Shown: piece by piece, positions 7,464 to 15,275 of the stretch | How positions within the stretch are numbered: the stretch's first letter is position 1 | Layout of the letters: every line of letters starts with the position of its first letter | Assembly (NCBI RefSeq): GCF_020883455.1 | Contig: NZ_CP086615.1 | Coordinates: 4,084,501 to 4,148,500, forward strand | Length of the DNA stretch: 64,000 nucleotides | Source: Spiribacter halobius | GTDB taxonomy: Bacteria; Pseudomonadota; Gammaproteobacteria; Nitrococcales; Nitrococcaceae | Reading direction: 5' to 3' | Translations under genes and position numbers: made by a program | The notes under the pieces: model-generated | Seen by the model: the letters and a program-made list of their open reading frames with translations, nothing else | Databases searched by the model: none | What the model was told of the DNA's origin: nothing

Positions 7464-8034
7464 TGCCACCACCGTCCGACGTCGATCGCTGCCCAGTCCG
7501 CACGCTACGTTGGCGCTTCCTGTGCGGTGGTGCAAATTCAACGTCTGGACAGCCGGCACATCCCATCGGTGACCCCGCGTCACTTCTGCCCGTGGTGCAG
7601 CCACCAGTCCTGCCGCGTTGCACGGATGAGCTACGCCTCGATGACGGAACCAGTCGACATGCTGGCTTCTAAGGCGTCGGCTTGCCGCCTGTTACGCAAC
7701 TAGGTGTTGTGTGCCCAGGGAGTGCACTGGAGGAGACCTGCTGGGGCGATCCATAGGGTTCGCGCGGGCTTGTGCTGAGGTCGAGGGGGAGAATGTAACA
7801 ACGGGTGCGCTCAAGACGGACCCGGGCCGCATCACCAACCATGCTGGCCTTGCCACCCCCAGCCATACCGACCAATCCGTCTAGCACTCGCACGCCTGCG
7901 CCGCGCAGCGCCGCGGGTTCTACCCCGTTTCCACGAACGGTGGGGGAAGTCCACACAGCTTGAGGGGGAGGCCTTAGAGCATCTGACACGGCGCGAGAAC
8001 CTTCCAGCAGGGCCCGAGCACCAGCACGACCGCC
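7464..8034. other. Degenerate stretch downstream of the recombinase
   Basis: About 570 bp between the antitoxin start and the 3' end of the split recombinase. Short overlapping frames exist on the minus strand (for example 7669-7989), but none has a recognisable domain. I read it as decayed sequence that also holds the antitoxin promoter. Confidence 0.35.
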
Positions 8035-8784
8035 TCACCTACACCTACGAGCTGATGCCGTGTTTGACCGCTTGGGAGTTCGACGTGAAGCCTCGCGCAA
8101 CGCCATGATCTGCTCAGCTTCCCCAGTCGTAATCATGGCCTCATGCGCGTTCTCATGGATCACCCACTCGCTGCGGGGACGCATTCGTGTTTTGCCGACG
8201 TAGGAGCCGTCAACGATTTCGGCGTGCCGGTTCCACACCAGATGCCCCGCATAGACCAAGGCGTTCTCCTCGATGTTGAACATCGTCGACTGCTGCAAGG
8301 GAAGTTCCAGTTCCCGACGAAGCGTGGCCCGACTTTGGCCGCGCAGCCGACCTCGCAAATAGCACTGAATCTTTGGGAACATGAGGGGATCACGGACAAG
8401 CCGGGTCTTGGTGATCGGCTGACCTTCTCGTGTCCCGATCACCTCGCGCTCAATCCGGTAGCCCGTTGGCGCCCTGCCGCCGGCCCGCCAGCCGCGCTGG
8501 ATGTTGAAGCGCATCCCGCGAAGACCGTCTTCCTTGCACTTGAGTGAGTGGAACTCGTCCATCGCTTCGAGCATGGATTCGATAAGGGAGTCGAGGTAGG
8601 AATCCGTCTTTGGCAGGGATTTGAAGACGACCTCGATGCCGAGTTTGCGCAGCTGGTGTTTGTAGATCTTCGCGTCGAGGCTCGACCGGGCGAACCGCGA
8701 TGTGTCGAGGCAGTAAACGCGCGTGAACGGGCATTCCGTGGACTTCGCCACGGCAATCATCTCTTGGAAGCCTGGGCGTTGGTC
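8035..8784 (-). pseudogene. Serine recombinase, 3' part of a split gene
   Basis: The C-terminal part of a large serine recombinase: YCLDTSRFARSSLDAKIYKHQLRKLGIEVVFKS (catalytic-domain core with the SRFAR signature), then the Recombinase domain GMRFNIQRGWRAGGRAPTGYRIE and the zinc-beta-ribbon-region start ALVYAGHLVWNR. Across the 11-bp duplication it joins in frame to the 5' part at 13540-13703 (AKTDQRP, then GFQEMIAVAKS). The joined protein would be about 300 residues, shorter than many of its class, so the 3' end may also be decayed. Confidence 0.88.
8774..8784. repeat. Target-site duplication, left copy
   Basis: GGGCGTTGGTC, repeated at 13540-13550. It flanks the XamI-type element exactly outside the terminal inverted repeats. 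Confidence 0.9.
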
Positions 8785-8809
8785 AAGGCATTCAGCTAAT
8801 GTGTTGAAA
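8785..8809 (+). repeat. Left 25-bp terminal inverted repeat
   Basis: Starts AAGGCATTCAGCTAATG and ends TTGAAA. It is a perfect reverse complement of 13515-13539. Confidence 0.95.
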
Positions 8810-8814
8810 ATGTC

Positions 8815-8868
8815 TTGGCGGGCCCATCAAAAGCCTCCTATACTCGGGCTCTGGGTATAGGGGGCTTT
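8815..8868 (+). promoter_or_regulatory. Transposase promoter overlapping an RBS-masking hairpin
   Basis: TTGGCG (8815-8820) and TATACT (8839-8844), 18 bp apart, form a plausible promoter with start near 8851. A 14-bp inverted repeat, AAAGCCTCCTATAC (8830-8843) and GTATAGGGGGCTTT (8855-8868, one mismatch), overlaps the -10 box and contains the GGGGG ribosome site eight bases before the TTG start. RNA from outside the element would fold and hide this site; RNA from the internal promoter would lack the left arm. IS10 and IS50 use the same logic. Confidence 0.55.
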
Positions 8869-8872
8869 CACA

Positions 8873-10672
8873 TTGGCCAGCCAAAAATCCGGCTCAGACT
8901 CTCGAAAGGTTCGTGTCCCGGAAGCGGTCGAAGGCATCCAGGTTAACCACTGCAAGAACCCAGTCTGCGAGAATTTTGGCCTTGCGGCCCGCAACAAAGG
9001 CAAGGACCCCGCTTACACCCGCGTCGGAGCTAACTCGCGGCCGCCGCGGATAGGCGAAAAAGCCAAGTCCATCCCGCCCTCGGTCCGCTGCAAGTCCTGC
9101 GGCGAGACCATCCCACTGAAGAGCAACGCCGGCGTCGTCGACACGATCGACATCCTGACGTGGCGGCCCGAGACGTTTTGTTGTCCGCAACCCGAGTGCG
9201 AGAACACCAGCGTCGATCTGCGCACCACGCCCGACGCGTACTACCGACACGGCAAGACCCGACAGGGCACCCCGCGCTTTCGCTGCCGCGCCTGCGGCCA
9301 GACGTTCGTCACGCAGGGAAGGCGCCGGCCGCAGCGCGCCGGCGAGCGCCCCTACCGGACCGAGCAGGTCGTGAAGGCGCTGCTCAACTCGATGCCCATC
9401 AATCGAATCATCGAAATATTTTCGATCCACCCGCAGACCATCTACGACATCATAGACCGCGCCTACGAGGCGTGCCTGGTCTTCGCCGCGGAGCGTGAGA
9501 TCCAACTCGGCGCCAAGGCCGCCGGACGCGGGGATCTCTACATCGCCACAGACCGGCAGTCCTACACGCTCAACTGGCGCCTGCGCGCCGACAAGCGCAA
9601 CACGGTACTGCGGGCGATAGTATCCACTGAGGTGCTCTCCGGGTACGTCTTTCCGGTACACCTGAACTACGACGCTCGCTCCGACGTCACACAGGTCAAT
9701 GAGATCGCCATGCTGCTCGGTGATCCCCAGATGCCGGGCATCTGGCGGCGCTTCCCGCACTACTGGCTCCTCGACGACTACGCGGAGGGCATCTTCCGGG
9801 TGCGCGAGGACGCCATTCCCCAGGAGACGCTGGCACAGCTCCGCAAAGAGCCTCTGGCGCACGTTCGACGTATCTACCGACAGGCCCTCAAGCGCTGGGA
9901 TGTCGAGGCCCCAAGCGACCAGCTCGACACGCAGACAAAGCTTCCGGACGAAGGCTTGCAGCTCCGGGAAGAGTACGTCCTCTACGCTCACTTCAGCCTG
10001 CTGCGTCGTTGGCTGGAGGCCTTCGATGAGGCGCACTTCTTCGTCGACCAGGAGAGCGGCATACGAGCCGCCTACATGGCGGCCTTTCACGACTGGGTGC
10101 TCGCGAACCGCAGTCATCTCTTCTACACCAAGGTGAAGGGCGCGCCGACGCGTGAGGAGCGAGAGGCGGCCGCGCGGGAACGAGACGAGATTCTGGAGGA
10201 GGCGCGACAGCAGTGGGGCAGCGTCGGGCGGGGCAAGATCGAGCTGCTGAAGATCGCGCTGCAGGCGAACTCCCAGCAACAGGGCCATTGGCACGATCGC
10301 TGGACGCCGTATCCATGGGGTTCGAGTGGGGAGGTTGAAAAGACTTTCTCCCATCAGACCGCCCGTCCGGAGCAGGACCTGGAGCGCCTGGCGGAGATAC
10401 TCCTGCACTGCTCACTGCTGCCGACCGAGCGATTTCTCCAGCGCGCCCGACGTCGACTATCACCGCTTGAGCGCGGCGTCCCAACGGCAGCGGGCAATCG
10501 CCGTATCTGGACCGGGAGGGCGCCCTACAACCCGAAGATGATCATCAAGCTCCTGGAGCTTCTGCGGGTGTACGTGAACTACTGCGAGGCGCCCAACCGC
10601 AACCGCGGCAACACGCCCGCCATGGACCTGGGGCTTGCTCGCGGGCCGGTTGAGCTGCGAAAAATACTGTAG
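8873..10672 (+). CDS. Zinc-ribbon DDE-type transposase of the XamI element
   Basis: A 599-residue protein starting at TTG 8873. The N-terminal 160 residues hold several Cys pairs (CKNPVCENFG, CKSCGE, CCPQPECEN) and a zinc ribbon YYRHGKTRQGTPRFRCRACGQTF, as in IS1 InsA and related transposases. A helix-turn-helix follows (RTEQVVKALLNSMPINRIIEIFSIHPQTIYDII, about 160-195). An RNase H-like core has candidate acidic residues in DLYIATDRQS, HYWLLDDYAEG and SSGEVEKTF. It is the only transposase between the terminal repeats, so it is assigned to their mobilisation. The family is uncertain. Confidence 0.75.
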   Translation: MASQKSGSDSRKVRVPEAVEGIQVNHCKNPVCENFGLAARNKGKDPAYTRVGANSRPPRIGEKAKSIPPSVRCKSCGETIPLKSNAGVVDTIDILTWRPETFCCPQPECENTSVDLRTTPDAYYRHGKTRQGTPRFRCRACGQTFVTQGRRRPQRAGERPYRTEQVVKALLNSMPINRIIEIFSIHPQTIYDIIDRAYEACLVFAAEREIQLGAKAAGRGDLYIATDRQSYTLNWRLRADKRNTVLRAIVSTEVLSGYVFPVHLNYDARSDVTQVNEIAMLLGDPQMPGIWRRFPHYWLLDDYAEGIFRVREDAIPQETLAQLRKEPLAHVRRIYRQALKRWDVEAPSDQLDTQTKLPDEGLQLREEYVLYAHFSLLRRWLEAFDEAHFFVDQESGIRAAYMAAFHDWVLANRSHLFYTKVKGAPTREEREAAARERDEILEEARQQWGSVGRGKIELLKIALQANSQQQGHWHDRWTPYPWGSSGEVEKTFSHQTARPEQDLERLAEILLHCSLLPTERFLQRARRRLSPLERGVPTAAGNRRIWTGRAPYNPKMIIKLLELLRVYVNYCEAPNRNRGNTPAMDLGLARGPVELRKIL

Positions 10673-10723
10673 AAATATGTTTTCCTCTCTGCGTCGATAG
10701 CCGTGATCGGCGCAGAATCCGCC

Positions 10724-10752
10724 TTGACAAGTTGTCGACTTGTCGACAAAAT
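10724..10752 (+). promoter_or_regulatory. Promoter of the RHH-methylase-endonuclease genes with two GTCGAC sites
   Basis: TTGACA (10724-10729) and CAAAAT (10747-10752) are 17 bp apart. The spacer contains the tandem repeat TTGTCGACTTGTCGAC (10732-10747), so GTCGAC occurs at 10734-10739 and 10742-10747. GTCGAC is the target of XamI, the family to which the encoded endonuclease belongs. Transcription would start near 10759, which is the ATG of the RHH gene, so the message may be leaderless. The two repeats suit binding by an RHH protein. Confidence 0.65.
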
Positions 10753-10758
10753 GGGACT

Positions 10759-10932
10759 ATGGAAATGGCGCAGACCAAGCCCGAAACAACCTCGAAGGAG
10801 TCTCAGGTAATAGGCATCCGCGTGCCCGTTGGGCTCGCCAGAGCTTTTAAGGCCGAAGCTGCCACGCGGGGGTTAAAGTTGAATGACCTCTTCGAGGAGA
10901 TGTGGTCTGCATACCAAAGGTCTCGGAAATAG
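10759..10932 (+). CDS. Ribbon-helix-helix protein, putative controller of the restriction genes
   Basis: 57 residues from ATG 10759 (ATG 10765 also possible). VIGIRVPVGLARAFKAEAATRGLKLNDLFEEMWSAYQ is a typical RHH fold: beta strand, helix A, helix B. It has no ribosome site, and the predicted transcript starts at the ATG. It lies between a promoter with tandem direct repeats and the methylase gene, the place where many type II systems have a C (controller) gene; those are Xre proteins and often leaderless too. A controller role is inferred; an antitoxin-like role is the alternative. Confidence 0.7.
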   Translation: MEMAQTKPETTSKESQVIGIRVPVGLARAFKAEAATRGLKLNDLFEEMWSAYQRSRK

Positions 10933-10941
10933 GCGCATCGA

Positions 10942-12498
10942 ATGAGAGGCATTCACTCAGAATATGAGCTCGGCCAGGCTGCAGAGCATCTGTATTCAAT
11001 GGGCTCCGAGGGCCGCTGGGCAAGGGATGGCTCGGATCCTCTCCACTCTCTTCAGAGGGAGATAGCCGCTGGTCACGACCCGCTCGGCGATGCCTTCTGC
11101 GCCATTCGCTCTCCGGAGGCGCGGCGGGGGGCGGGAGCGACGTACACGCCATGGCCGATTATCGACTCGATGCTCCGATGGGCGCGAGAGAACGCAGATC
11201 CCGCTCGCGTTGTAGATCCGGGCGCAGGCTCCGGACGATTCGCGCTCAAAGCGGCCCGCGTTTTCCCCGAGGCAAGCGTAGTGGCCATAGAGCCGGACCC
11301 GCTTGCCGTGCGCATTCTTCGGGCGAATATAGCGGCTGCCGGCATGAAGGATCGGGTTACCGTCATCGAGGATGATTACAGGCAGGCCGTGATCGAGGAG
11401 ATTGAGGGTCAAACGCTATTCATCGGGAACCCGCCGTATGTCCGACACCACAATATCGCCGAAGAATGGAAAGAGTGGTTTGCCCGTAGTGCGGCAACCT
11501 ACGGTATAAAGGCGAGCAAGCTCGCCGGGCTGCACATCCACTTCTACCTGCGGACGCTTCAGCTGGCTCAAAACGGCGATGTAGGTGCATTCATCACTTC
11601 GTCCGAGTGGCTCGACGTGAACTACGGCGACTCGCTGCGCCAGCTCCTGAGCCGGGATCTGGGCGGCATTGCGCTGCACGTTCTCGACCCGAAGGCTTTG
11701 CCCTTCGCCGATGCGACGACGACGGGCGCGATAGCATGCTTCAAGGTTGGGCGGAAAGCGGACAAATTCCGTGTTCGCAATGTTGATTCAGCAGCAAAAC
11801 TCAATGGGCTATCCGGCGGACGGGGTATCTCCTGGGACAAGCTTGCCGGCACCAGTCGCTGGTCGGCGATCATACGCCCAGGGCCTAAGCCACCCGCGGG
11901 CTTTGTGGAGCTTGGCGAGATCTGCCGGGTTCACCGGGGGCAGGTGACTGGTGGAAACCGCGTTTGGGTTGCAGGGGAGGAAGCTTCTAAACTGCCTACG
12001 CGGCTTCTCACACCTGCGGTTACGAAGGCCAAGGAGCTGATAGGCGCCGGAAACGTCTTGTCGGATGCACGTCACCTCAAGCGGATCGTGGACCTCCCGC
12101 AGGATCTCGATGATCTGGATGCTGACGAGCGCAAGAGGGTGATGCGGTTTCTGCGCTGGGCAAAGAAACAGGGCGCAGACCAGTCTTACATTGCACGCCA
12201 TCGGCCAGCTTGGTGGTCAGTTGGGCTCAAACCAGCTGCTCCGATTCTATGCACGTACATGGCTCGACGCCCGCCGGCCTTTGTGCGCAATGAGTGCGAG
12301 GCTCGCCACATCAACATTGCCCATGGCCTGTACCCCAGAGAGAATCTGTCGAGCGAAACACTTGATGCGATAGCTTCATTTCTCAGAGAGAATGTCGGCG
12401 TCCATTCTGGTCGCACATACGCCGGAGGGCTTACCAAGTTTGAGCCCAAAGAACTCGAACGAATTGCTATTCCACCAATAGAACAACTAACGGCATGA
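10942..12498 (+). CDS. N6-adenine DNA methyltransferase of the XamI-type system
   Basis: A 518-residue class I SAM-dependent methyltransferase. Motif I is VVDPGAGSGRF (90-100), the acidic loop AIEPDP about 115-120, and the catalytic motif IV IGNPPYVRHH (161-170) marks an N6-adenine enzyme of the gamma type. The C-terminal half (from about 290) is the target-recognition region. It would protect the host at the site cut by the downstream endonuclease. Its stop overlaps the endonuclease ATG by ATGA (12495-12498), so methylase and nuclease are coupled. Nine bases separate it from the RHH gene. Confidence 0.93.
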   Translation: MRGIHSEYELGQAAEHLYSMGSEGRWARDGSDPLHSLQREIAAGHDPLGDAFCAIRSPEARRGAGATYTPWPIIDSMLRWARENADPARVVDPGAGSGRFALKAARVFPEASVVAIEPDPLAVRILRANIAAAGMKDRVTVIEDDYRQAVIEEIEGQTLFIGNPPYVRHHNIAEEWKEWFARSAATYGIKASKLAGLHIHFYLRTLQLAQNGDVGAFITSSEWLDVNYGDSLRQLLSRDLGGIALHVLDPKALPFADATTTGAIACFKVGRKADKFRVRNVDSAAKLNGLSGGRGISWDKLAGTSRWSAIIRPGPKPPAGFVELGEICRVHRGQVTGGNRVWVAGEEASKLPTRLLTPAVTKAKELIGAGNVLSDARHLKRIVDLPQDLDDLDADERKRVMRFLRWAKKQGADQSYIARHRPAWWSVGLKPAAPILCTYMARRPPAFVRNECEARHINIAHGLYPRENLSSETLDAIASFLRENVGVHSGRTYAGGLTKFEPKELERIAIPPIEQLTA

Positions 12499-13415
12499 TC
12501 AAACCACCCAGATGGAGCGATTCGGACCTCAAGGCTGATGTTGACCGCTCTATAGCGCTATTTCGCCACGAGCGCCTCGACGAGCCGGTTGAAATATGGC
12601 GTAAGACTTTTGATGCGCATGAGGCTCAGTTCCGGACGCTTTTCGAAAAGCATGGCGCCCTCGACCTCAAGAGCATGACCGCGGATCAGGTCGCCAGGGT
12701 TTTCGAGGATAATCTAGGCGATGCCTTGCGATATCTTGCTGGCCCACCGATTTCGGAGGACGACTTGAAGGTCCTAGCGGACGCCTCATTGGCGCCGAGC
12801 AAAATCAAGGAGGATAACCACGCCGCTGAGCGCATCCTAAGCACAATCGTTCAGGCGCTTGACTCCAAACGGTTCCCCTGGGTGGTTGATAACCGTCAAC
12901 CGACAGACGCCGAAAAGCGGGCCGCAGTCCTCACGTCCGCAGCTTTGATAACCGCGCAACGTGTCTCGACGCTTCGGCGCAACGATGGAAAGAACAAGCA
13001 GGAGGGCGGCGTTAAAAACTTTCTGCGCGGCATTGGCTTCCAAGAAGTTTCTTCGCGGACGATTCGTACGCTCGCAGACGCCCCAAGTGTCGGAGAATTT
13101 TGCTCGGAGTGTCTCGTGGGGTCTAGGAAGGCAGACATACCCGTCCGGCTCTATGACGGCCGCCTGATGCCAGTCGAGTGCAAGGTCTCCAACAGTTCGA
13201 CGAACAGTGTTAAGCGTGTCAACAACGACGCTGCGGTAAAGGCAGGTATCTGGCGCCGCGAGCTCGGCGAGAATCAGGTGGTGCCAGTGGCAGTTCTATC
13301 AGGCGTGTTCAACGTCTTGAACCTGATCCAGGCTCAAGAGAGTCACCTGACCCTGTTTTGGGCTCACGATCTCGGCAAGATGGGTGAGTTCATAGAAAAG
13401 ACACGTCAAGGATAG
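12495..13415 (+). CDS. XamI-family type II restriction endonuclease
   Basis: 306 residues. Recognised by the family pattern: LRYLAGPPISEDDL (about 78-91), KRFPWVVDNRQPTDAEKRAA, VSTLRRNDGKNKQEGGVKNFL, DAPSVGEFCSECLVGSRKADIPVRL and MPVECKVSNSSTNSVKRVNNDAAVKAG. The last contains the D...ECK of the PD-(D/E)XK nuclease centre (D in KADIPVRL, then ECK). XamI cleaves GTCGAC; the specificity here is inferred from the family. The gene appears full-length and functional, and is followed by a hairpin terminator. Confidence 0.93.
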   Translation: MIKPPRWSDSDLKADVDRSIALFRHERLDEPVEIWRKTFDAHEAQFRTLFEKHGALDLKSMTADQVARVFEDNLGDALRYLAGPPISEDDLKVLADASLAPSKIKEDNHAAERILSTIVQALDSKRFPWVVDNRQPTDAEKRAAVLTSAALITAQRVSTLRRNDGKNKQEGGVKNFLRGIGFQEVSSRTIRTLADAPSVGEFCSECLVGSRKADIPVRLYDGRLMPVECKVSNSSTNSVKRVNNDAAVKAGIWRRELGENQVVPVAVLSGVFNVLNLIQAQESHLTLFWAHDLGKMGEFIEKTRQG

Positions 13416-13464
13416 GCGCCAACACCCGCATCAAGGGGCAAACGCCCCTGAGAGATAAAGCAAT

Positions 13465-13497
13465 GCCTCCGACACTTTTTGGTGCCGGAGGCCTTTT
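13465..13497 (+). terminator. Rho-independent terminator after the endonuclease gene
   Basis: GCCTCCG (13465-13471) pairs with CGGAGGC (13486-13492), with further pairing ACAC/GTG around a T-rich loop, followed by CTTTTT. It lies 50 bp after the endonuclease stop and just inside the right terminal repeat. Confidence 0.85.
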
Positions 13498-13514
13498 TGC
13501 TCGGCTAAGCCAAC

Positions 13515-13539
13515 TTTCAACACATTAGCTGAATGCCTT
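13515..13539 (-). repeat. Right 25-bp terminal inverted repeat
   Basis: A perfect reverse complement of 8785-8809, immediately followed by the second copy of the target duplication (13540-13550). Confidence 0.95.
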
Positions 13540-13703
13540 GGGCGTTGGTCGGTCTTTGCGGATTGCACCCTGTCCTCGAAAGTAGCGACCACCGTAGCAC
13601 CGCCGCTGCGGCAGTAGTTCGTTAATTCGCCTCGCTGGCTCTCGACGCTGATATCGTGCCGATCTTTCGTCGAGCGCAGGTAAAGCGCTGCCTTTTCAGC
13701 CAT
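13540..13703 (-). pseudogene. Serine recombinase, 5' part of the split gene
   Basis: From ATG 13703, preceded by AGGAG, it reads MAEKAALYLRSTKDRHDIS, then VESQRGELTNYCRSGGATVVATFEDRVQSAKTDQRP: the N-terminal resolvase domain with the catalytic serine in YLRSTKD. The frame runs into the terminal repeat of the XamI element and soon ends. Joined to 8035-8784 it gives one uninterrupted recombinase. Confidence 0.9.
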
Positions 13704-13822
13704 GCCACGTACTCCTGTGCAAGCAAGGGGAGTAACTCTTGTGGAGCAGCGTGCTCGAGCTGACCTGAAGTTACCCCGCCCCGGTGAAGATGTTGGGCTT
13801 TCGGTAGACTTGCCAGAGTGCA

Positions 13823-13984
13823 CATCCGTGCGGAGTTGCGCTCCGGCACCTCATCCTGGATCGGCCGGTGCAGTACAATCCAATCACCCCACTGCCAGGC
13901 CATTAGCTCGTGGGACTCGAGGTCTCCGAGGCAGTACACCAGCTCAGGGCCAAGGGCACACTGGGATTCCGTCCCCTTCTCCAC
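13823..13984 (-). pseudogene. N-terminal relic of a second ParS/Xre-type antitoxin
   Basis: From ATG 13984 the frame reads GPELVYCLGDLESHELMAWQWGDWIV, then HRPIQDEVPERNSARM. Without gaps it matches the antitoxin at 7063-7463 (GTDLAYFLGDLDGLEDVALGEVDW, VFYQLIEKGVPVSSAARM) at 18 of 46 positions. After SARM the similarity stops, although the frame stays open into the recombinase leader, so the gene has lost its C-terminal part. It follows the nucleotidyltransferase gene by 43 bp. Confidence 0.5.
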
Positions 13985-14027
13985 TCGTGGCAGTCCGGGC
14001 GAGCACTATTGGATTCCGCCGGTTCGT

Positions 14028-14381
14028 TCACTCCGCCCGATTTCGATCTCGGGCCTTCCTCAGCAATGAGTTCCGCACGTGCTCCCTTATAAGGTCTTCG
14101 AGAAAAATCAGATCGATACGGATAGGTGACTCGAGGTCGCTGACACGGCAATAGAGCGTCTCGCGGGTGACGCCTCTAGGACGTTCCGTGACGAGGATGT
14201 CGATATCCGAACCGGTGCGGAAGTGATCCTCATCCTCTGCAAGGGAGCCCGTAAGAAAGGCCGTCGCGCCCATACCTTCGAGCACGTCGAGGGCCTCGCT
14301 CGCGAAGCGAATCGCCACTTCCCGGCGAGCCCTCGCGCGCCGCCGTTTGAGTGCCTGATAGCTCGGATATGAGTGCCGCAC
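14028..14381 (-). CDS. MNT-type nucleotidyltransferase domain protein
   Basis: 117 residues with the minimal nucleotidyltransferase signature TAFLTGSLAEDEDHFRTGSDIDILV (GS, then SDID, about residues 43-64), which supplies the two metal-binding aspartates, and a third acidic residue in RIDLIFLEDL. Such small MNT proteins are antitoxins of HEPN toxins (transferring AMP to the toxin) or relatives of aminoglycoside nucleotidyltransferases. No HEPN-like frame is visible beside it; downstream is an antitoxin relic. It may be an orphan. Confidence 0.75.
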   Translation of the reverse strand: MRHSYPSYQALKRRRARARREVAIRFASEALDVLEGMGATAFLTGSLAEDEDHFRTGSDIDILVTERPRGVTRETLYCRVSDLESPIRIDLIFLEDLIREHVRNSLLRKARDRNRAE

Positions 14382-14471
14382 GATGCGATGTCACCTCAAC
14401 AGAGCCGGCATTGCGCCTTGGCGATCAGATAAGGTATCGGCCGCCATCCGAAAAGCCGGGTTCGAGCCGAT

Positions 14472-15275
14472 TCACGGCACTCGGACGTATTGGTGTGGGT
14501 CGAACCGCTCATTCTCCGCAATGCCACCATAGCCGCGCGCGTTCGACACGACACGGCATCCAGCGACGTACGTATCGACGGTGTCATGGGTGTGCCCGTG
14601 GATCCATAGGCTTGGGCGCACGCGCGCGATGACCTCGCCTAAATCAGAGCCATAGCTGAATGAAATCTGCGGCCCCCAAGGCCCGTCGGGATAGTAAGGG
14701 GCGTGGTGAGTGATCACTACCGGGATAATCCCTCGCTCGCGAGCGCTTGTGACCTCGCGCTCGATGTAGTGGGTGGATTTCAGGTGAAGGGCCTGCGCAT
14801 CCCGCGGTCGAAAGCGGTATGCGTAAGGCTCAGCGGGAGGGCCGTGGCGGATACGGCGGAAATCCCGCATGCCCCGCTGCGCCGCCTTGAGGGCCAGCGG
14901 CTTGCCGCCGCGGAAGTCCGTCCATAGCGTCGCGCCGATAAACACCACGGTTCCGATCTCTACGAAACCGCGCTCGAGGACATGGACGTTGCCTATGCCT
15001 TCGGCGGCGACCGCATCGCGCAGCTTCTGGACAACGCGCGGGATTGAGCCGTCGTAGTACTCGTGATTGCCGGCGACGAGCACGACCGCGCGAAAGGCCC
15101 CGGCGTACTGCAATGCGAATTGGGCGGCCCACTCGCCGACGTCGATATCTCCCGCCAGCACCAGGACGCGGTCAAGATCGGCCTCGGTAACCGGTAGCTC
15201 GAAGCGCGGGTCATGGCGTCTGAGCCCCCGCCCACTGACTTCGAGATGCAGGTCACTGACATAGCGGATCTCCAT
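14472..15275 (-). CDS. Calcineurin-like metallophosphoesterase
   Basis: 267 residues from ATG 15275. The five metallophosphoesterase blocks are visible: YVSDLHLE, VLAGDIDVGEW, VAGNHEYYDG, VVITHHAPYY and WIHGHTHDTVD. The fold places two metal ions and hydrolyses phosphodiesters or phosphomonoesters. The start is 14 bp after the exonuclease stop, so the two genes are in one unit. The substrate (nucleic acid or nucleotide) is not determined; the neighbours favour nucleic acids. Confidence 0.9.
   Translation of the reverse strand: MEIRYVSDLHLEVSGRGLRRHDPRFELPVTEADLDRVLVLAGDIDVGEWAAQFALQYAGAFRAVVLVAGNHEYYDGSIPRVVQKLRDAVAAEGIGNVHVLERGFVEIGTVVFIGATLWTDFRGGKPLALKAAQRGMRDFRRIRHGPPAEPYAYRFRPRDAQALHLKSTHYIEREVTSARERGIIPVVITHHAPYYPDGPWGPQISFSYGSDLGEVIARVRPSLWIHGHTHDTVDTYVAGCRVVSNARGYGGIAENERFDPHQYVRVP

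Follow-up and report, generated by a model that had tools for sequence, protein, structure and literature searches.

Among described mobile elements, the closest counterparts of the element considered here insert at palindromes or carry defence genes. Passages of one account describe insertion of TnSha1/IS1272 into hairpins, several of them confirmed transcription terminators, with no primary sequence specificity, and report a cargo gene in TnSha1 (PMC4923244). As described in those passages, TnSha1 enters the stem and deletes part of the hairpin without leaving a duplication, and IS1272 is portrayed likewise in part of a second report (PMC5678879). For the insertion sequences (IS) that target repetitive extragenic palindromes (REP), including IS1397, ISKpn1 and others, an excerpted account attributes the choice of palindrome to the transposase and spans five IS families, IS256 among them (PMC1525189). 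Tn7-like transposons are presented, in part of another study, as carrying cargo rich in defence systems, with restriction-modification (RM) the commonest and known innate immune systems in 26% (PMC8649781). The subject of the present analysis is an element of 4757 bp at positions 8784 to 13540 of a window of Spiribacter halobius contig NZ_CP086615.1, the window being the whole 64,000-nt stretch that was analysed. The element is a transposon with an RM pair as cargo, and statistical comparison shows that most resolved members of its family have a target duplication whose midpoint coincides with a hairpin axis, the hairpin usually being terminator-like.

Like IS1272 and TnSha1 of the IS1182 family, which are the nearest case known and are taken here as the passages above describe them, the present family has terminator hairpins as targets. 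Unlike them, it keeps both stem arms, as seen at loci L102, L105 and L063, and duplicates 9-10 bp centred on the loop; the partial hairpin deletion without duplication of IS1272/IS1182-type insertion was not found. REP-targeting IS, as far as their excerpted description goes, hit particular repeated palindrome families, whereas the stems used by the present family differ in sequence. The IS256 family, which provides the best fold match to the window transposase (ISCth4), makes duplications of 8-9 bp. Unlike IS256 members, the present transposase is about 600 aa long with N-terminal zinc ribbons and no Pfam match, and 42 of 60 listed elements carry cargo. The resemblance to Tn7-like transposons, to the extent that the survey portion covers them, lies in cargo rich in defence systems. 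Tn7 itself inserts in the glmS terminator region, using several proteins and a dedicated site, whereas elements of the present family have only one recognisable transposase gene and use a wide range of terminators. Tn7-like elements are defined by tnsA/B/C-type transposition genes, and when the four window proteins encoded within the element were compared with Pfam and NCBIfam, no such gene was among the matches. No account of a family with loop-centred duplications at terminators was found in the open-access literature (PubMed Central), ISfinder lying outside that search, and the family is widespread and apparently undescribed. Its new aspect is the combination of a cargo transposon with an unusual target rule.

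A transposon carrying a restriction-modification pair

The element is bounded by two 26-bp terminal inverted repeats, the left at 8784 to 8809 on the plus strand and the right at 13515 to 13540 on the minus strand, each 100% complementary to the other. Outside them lie identical copies (without strand) of the target duplication, GGCGTTGGT, at 8775 to 8783 and 13541 to 13549. The sequence-only reading of this stretch had described perfect 25-bp inverted repeats and an 11-bp direct repeat at both junctions; the perfect repeats and both junctions hold, and the two lengths have been revised. The two divisions describe the same bases, because the terminal C/G of the element is, by chance, identical to the base pair adjoining the duplication, so that the direct repeat measures 9 bp when that C/G is counted in the element and 11 bp otherwise. 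The split into 26 and 9 bp is preferred because another copy in the genome (L010), whose ends are likewise C...G, has a duplication of exactly 10 bp beyond them.

The insertion interrupts a serine recombinase gene on the minus strand, whose downstream part occupies 8035 to 8783 (assigned from its open reading frame and domain matches) and whose upstream part occupies 13550 to 13703, with a start codon picked by eye. In-silico excision of 4766 bp, the element plus one duplication, yields a single open frame for a 349-aa serine recombinase, as had been claimed from the letters alone. When the restored protein was compared with plasmid recombinase genes by tblastn, single-piece alignments ran over the junction, for example from query residue 4 to 200 at 32.5% identity. 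An Rfam scan of window positions 7500 to 14500 gave no match.

A search of the same genome identified two further elements. The first (L009, 6309 to 10712 of its locus) has 9 bp duplicated at its ends, stops in its transposase, and the same methylase and endonuclease as the window copy at about 79% DNA identity. The second (L010, 7171 to 10650) has ends nearly the same as those of the window copy, a 10-bp duplication and transposase pieces of 90-92% DNA identity, and the RM genes are absent; between 7252 and 10619, a stretch that includes a RES/Xre toxin-antitoxin pair breaks up its transposase gene. Since one copy has the RM pair and the other does not, the pair is optional cargo moved with these ends. 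Thus a transposase and cargo lie inside inverted repeats with a direct repeat outside, at more than one site, as in a unit cargo-carrying transposon, and the window segment is confirmed as a real transposon with DNA restriction cargo. The central proposal of the sequence-only reading, a transposon carrying a XamI-type RM system, is borne out by repeats that bound the segment and by a second copy that holds the same RM pair within its own duplication. That reading suggested checking for copies with different cargo, different duplications and empty sites, and all of these exist within the family; neither homologous loci with always the same flanks nor repeats that fail to bound the segment elsewhere were seen. 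The preference for hairpin targets and the inward-facing terminators, described below, lay beyond what that reading could see.

Within the element, all genes lie on the plus strand. The transposase gene (8873 to 10672) encodes 599 aa with zinc-ribbon cysteines and an RNase H-like core. A small protein of 57-66 aa, depending on the start chosen, follows at 10759 to 10932; it is RHH-like by eye, has no Pfam hit, and its DNA is similar in the second copy. The DNA adenine methyltransferase of the RM pair (10942 to 12498) matches Eco57I at 45.8 bits against a cut-off of 25.3 (9.1e-12) and N6_Mtase at 3e-5, and adjoins the gene for the XamI-type restriction endonuclease (12495 to 13415), which matches PF09572 (RE_XamI) at 126.7 bits against a cut-off of 25 (1.4e-36) and the PADLOC model REase_II at 1.3e-79. 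The contents first read from the sequence are therefore upheld for the transposase, the methylase, the endonuclease and a terminator-like hairpin, while the RHH label stands without a Pfam hit.

Upstream of the RM operon, a candidate promoter at 10724 to 10752 on the plus strand consists of TTGACA, a 17-nt spacer and CAAAAT. Two GTCGAC sites, 8 bp apart from start to start, lie between these candidate -35 and -10 hexamers, and both are retained in L009 despite diverged bases around them. If GTCGAC, presumably the recognition site of XamI, is also recognised here, the methylase could tune its own promoter.

The idea of XamI-type systems as cargo tied to this transposon was rejected, as XamI-type relatives occur without this transposase alongside. 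One relative was found among 368 other genomes of the class, beside another transposase, and relatives occur in 18 plasmid records. At locus L116 (3964 to 6458), a XamI-type RM pair with a 49% identical endonuclease lies near a different transposase-like frame, and XamI-type RM therefore has other vehicles.

Hairpin axes as insertion sites

The window element belongs to a family of transposons that have similar ends and duplications of 9-10 bp and differ in their cargo. One genome from each of 84,980 species was scanned for a pattern, which 159 stretches matched; 124 of these encode a relative, and the best 80 were kept. Ends were sought at 87 transposase loci with a script that is blind to hairpins; it scores inverted repeats together with direct repeats of 9-10 bp and slightly favours ends that show C...G and AG. 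Forty-five loci passed, and L009 and L010, set by hand, brought the total to 47 elements with resolved ends and duplications of 9-10 bp. The other 42 comprise 27 without accepted ends and 15 with ends of at least 23/26 and no duplication (six at contig ends, nine with flanks). L036 had been dropped by hand before the count of 47 (inverted repeat 18/26, one mismatch in the duplication), L013 failed the repeat cut-off, and L115 showed no clear ends. L046 and L048 represent one insertion: the stem count of 47 includes both, L046 is dropped from the arm-shuffle set (46), and the offset, inward-terminator and site-list sets drop L046 and add L114 (47). The consensus over 94 family ends starts C(A/T)AG(C/G)CGTT and finishes GTGTTGAAA, and element lengths range from 1886 to 10634 bp.

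Around the duplication, at least 7 of 8 positions pair at 32 of the 47 sites and all 8 pair at 25, compared with 2.7% and 0.26% of 2300 random positions in the same loci. Pairing reaches 4.96 of 8 at the duplication centre and at most 2.02 at offsets of at least 3 nt. When right arms were redealt among 46 elements, pairing fell from the observed 6.30 of 10 to 4.04 +/- 0.21, with a maximum of 4.72 in 2000 shuffles; since shuffled arms lose pairing, the complementarity exceeds what a shared consensus or composition would give. Collectively, the best explanation of these observations, held at a probability of roughly 0.8, is a unit DNA transposon with optional XamI-type RM cargo, from a family that lands on hairpin loops, has inward-facing terminators and would act by the mechanism proposed in the last section.

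The flanks of many sites also resemble transcription terminators. An A-run on the left together with a T-run on the right, as in bidirectional intrinsic terminators, accompanies 28 of 46 sites and 0.4% of 2700 controls, and an A-run or T-run of at least 4 is present at 29 of 32 strong-stem sites. Such runs are what would be expected if the transposase were drawn by paused RNA polymerase or the nascent transcript instead of DNA secondary structure. This explanation is unlikely, though it deserves serious consideration: three strong hairpins without an A or T run of 4 (L035, L089 and L103) are also used, which argues that the target is the hairpin rather than strictly the terminator, and a loop-centred stagger of 9-10 bp is more easily explained by contact with a DNA hairpin.

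Since terminators are intergenic and no gene is broken there, insertion could instead be random, with selection purging all but harmless intergenic sites that are rich in terminators; the window copy shows that insertion into a gene does happen. Among 2760 intergenic positions of the same loci, however, 2.25% reach at least 7 of 8 pairs and 0.4% reach 8 of 8, the full stem found at 25 of 47 insertions. The axis also lies within 1 nt of the duplication centre in 29 of the 31 elements that reach 7 or more pairs by the offset measure, a precision that selection for gene integrity would not require. Random insertion followed by selection is thus improbable.

Natural empty sites bear on where the palindromes come from. 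At L102, the flanks abut in an unsplit hairpin in 4 of 79 other genomes of the genus, with the 10 bp present once (three exact, one with one change). At L105, the empty site occurs in 2 of 17 genomes, with one exact copy of the 9 bp and a weaker hairpin in one. At L063, the empty site with its long hairpin is present in 3 of 17 genomes; the duplicated bases are exact in two of them, in one of which the script's alignment is shifted by one base, and carry one change in the third. These sites confirm the hairpin target at the three loci. An exact empty site on a Rhizobium plasmid corresponds to L015, which is not at a hairpin, and for the plasmid element L014, the two flanks align over 588 bp of a Marinobacter record and span 2640 bp of the query, which fits an empty site by arithmetic only. 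The flanking palindromes might otherwise be part of the element as extended inverted repeats, or be made by transposition, as in IS1272-type replacement, since flanks plus ends can form long inverted repeats. The stems vary between elements, however, and are set off from the ends by the duplication, and the same hairpin without the element in sister genomes contradicts this account at L102, L105 and L063, which leaves it highly improbable. It could still hold at L085 (96 to 7035), where perfect inverted ends are flanked by 16 immediate bases on each side that are reverse complements of each other, with no direct repeat; this locus is either an assembly artefact or another insertion mode. An immobile RM island with coincidental repeats, for which XamI-type pairs on plasmids and in another genome without this transposase could be cited, can be dismissed: the 26-bp ends are perfect, the target is duplicated, excision restores the recombinase frame, and two more copies with similar ends lie elsewhere.

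Returning to landing on hairpin loops with inward-facing terminators, the latter were called as a stem of at least 7 with a T-run within 140 nt, beside the terminal repeats. An inward-facing terminator was found at the left end of 23 of 47 elements and the right end of 26, with at least one end scoring in 37, while outward-facing ones were found at 1 left and 8 right ends. Dinucleotide shuffles gave about 2% each and random 140-mers 1.9%. In the window, an intrinsic-terminator-like hairpin read from the sequence at 13465 to 13498 (plus strand), at the end of the RM operon, was scored R+ in this terminator search. The hairpin just inside the left end (8830 to 8868, plus strand) has a best stem of 8 pairs and is a weak terminator candidate. 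Inward terminators would keep termination intact after a terminator has been split; their presence is explained just as well by a need to shield the transposase from read-through.

Several observations weigh against landing on hairpin loops with inward terminators as the account of the whole family. Fifteen of 47 sites fall below 7 of 8 pairs, including all three Spiribacter halobius copies (5, 4 and 5 of 8), and L009 and L010 are not at clear hairpins; two of the 15 low scorers, L012 and L114, look like hairpins with an off-centre duplication. The three hairpins without runs belong here as well, as do the nine elements in which the inverted repeats reach at least 23/26 and neither flank is missing, yet a 9-10 bp direct repeat is absent. 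The left flank of L045 gave no empty site; it had matches in 66 of 75 other genomes, and in the close ones these extend to about base 357-401 of the 410. Inward terminators occur at both ends in only 12 of 47 elements, and the window copy was not scored as having one; its strong hairpin at the left end has only three T after it. At the window site itself, 5 of 8 positions pair, or 7 of 8 with G-U pairs, values equalled by 4.9% and 0.7% of window left-flank positions, which is suggestive of a hairpin at best. The hairpin preference is therefore strong in the family and not shown for the window's own lineage.

Transposase, distribution and cargo

The window transposase matches no Pfam family at 0.001, and so has no Mutator/IS256-type Pfam match; NCBIfam IS256_N_4Cys scores 24.0 bits, under its cut-off of 27. 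The sequence-only reading knew of no named family that fits the transposase together with the repeat and duplication lengths, and the libraries tried give the protein no name either: the NCBIfam IS models fall below their cut-offs except for a 23-residue zinc-binding domain. Membership of IS1, suggested by the N-terminal zinc ribbon, was rejected, since NF033558 reaches 38 bits against a cut-off of 100 and only residues 122-199 match. IS1 ends are of the GGnnnTG type, which the consensus of the family ends does not follow. The predicted model (mean predicted local distance difference test score, pLDDT, 85.4) has an RNase H-like core. In fold comparison, ISCth4 of the IS256 family is the best match (Z 12.4, root-mean-square deviation 3.9, 245 residues aligned), followed by Tn5 (9.9) and Hermes (9.3); IS256 transposases have an RNase H-like core into which a segment is inserted ahead of the last acid, and the likeness of the model to ISCth4 points to a shared fold, which does not prove IS256 membership. 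Foldseek by itself yielded a single match below 0.001, for which TM-scores were poor, and a sequence-profile search of solved structures reached, within the 60 matches listed, zinc fingers and a further zinc-binding chain. In the family alignment, D227, E487 and E533 are invariant and D392 is near-invariant, among other acids, and the best guess for a putative active site is D227/D392/E533.

The family is sparse. Within the window's class, matches at 1e-30 occur in 2 of 368 other genomes, and among nearer relatives only 3 of 94 genomes have any match, of which two are fragments of a good match and one is weak. Plasmid records matching the transposase number 114 in all, mostly distant; the best six relatives are annotated as hypothetical and share 27-35% identity over 98-99% of the protein. 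The labels on a tree of 33 proteins are Pseudomonadota, Thermodesulfobacteriota, Myxococcota, Acidobacteriota and Bacillota, many from metagenome bins, so that single labels may be wrong. A viral contig scan with the transposase alignment found no relative, and two records of a phage collection both have a distant staphylococcal relative. On an Enterococcus plasmid (L016, 3332 to 6607), a distant relative lies beside dfrG in a terminator-like hairpin, and a similar protein is present in two staphylococcal phage records. A Salinivibrio protein downstream of deoD (L156, 5010 to 6476), about 24-25% identical to the transposase, is annotated as lactate dehydrogenase and is either a misannotation or a domesticated copy.

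Cargo was surveyed in the 60 listed elements, which leave aside L009 and L010, and an element was counted as cargo-bearing when 330 bp or more separate its transposase match from its right end. What counts as cargo space in L106 may be the remainder of a frameshifted transposase, and other mobile elements are nested inside L011 and L045. Of the 42 cargo-bearing elements, 13 have RM-type methylases, specificity subunits or endonucleases (the window, L029, L032, L035, L037, L038, L041, L047, L051, L056, L059, L089 and L100), and their kinds include NotI, PstI/BsuBI, type I, IIG and type III-like. Toxin-antitoxin or abortive-infection families are found in 7 of the 42 (L033, L049, L080, L084, L090, L091 and L103), where such a role is probable for the Fic and Gp49 proteins. 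Other cargo includes dehydrogenases (L053), an ABC transporter (L085), dfrG (L016) and an exonuclease (L068). Proteins with DUF7830 and DUF6035 occur at L076 (12759 to 14126, with a CoiA-like nuclease match), L077 (14784 to 16121) and L084 (11849 to 13324), and are possibly an undescribed defence module.

The Pfam scan covered 69 of 95 cargo frames of at least 100 aa, and PADLOC covered all 95 together with 95 length-matched flank frames from the same loci. Of the 25 most-shared PADLOC families in each set, those in cargo match 2-7 of 95 proteins each and are nearly all RM families, while those in the flanks match 1 of 95 each and are mostly Cas1 or reverse transcriptase. The total numbers of families matched are alike (121 in cargo and 131 in flanks), because one protein can match many models. 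RM proteins thus recur in cargo, and PADLOC supports no wider claim. On the transposase tree, the RM label requires 9 changes compared with 10.5 for shuffled labels, and as 111 of 500 shuffles are as low, cargo type is not clearly tied to lineage.

Proposed mechanism and significance

By the proposed mechanism, the transposase would bind the 26-bp ends, capture target DNA on which a hairpin or cruciform loop is exposed, and join the ends with a stagger of 9-10 bp around the loop. A host terminator would be split by the insertion and the inward terminators of the element would stop host transcripts, so that the insertion may cost the host little. The cargo, often an RM or toxin-antitoxin module, may then help the element to be kept. 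The window copy would represent an off-target insertion at a weak hairpin inside the recombinase gene. A more general form of the proposal, for which the chances seem evenly balanced, is that of a DDE transposase family that reads DNA secondary structure, inserts into extruded terminator hairpin loops of any sequence and brings its own inward terminators, with the near-neutral landing making it a general vehicle for RM and toxin-antitoxin modules across phyla.

The defined 26-bp ends make it easier to find family members that are now annotated as "hypothetical protein". If the proposal is true, recognition by a transposase of hairpin loops with many sequences would be a new rule of target choice, open to biochemical study, and aiming at a terminator while bringing replacements would be a way for a mobile element to land harmlessly. 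The family would then be a concrete vehicle by which RM and toxin-antitoxin modules travel between distant bacteria.

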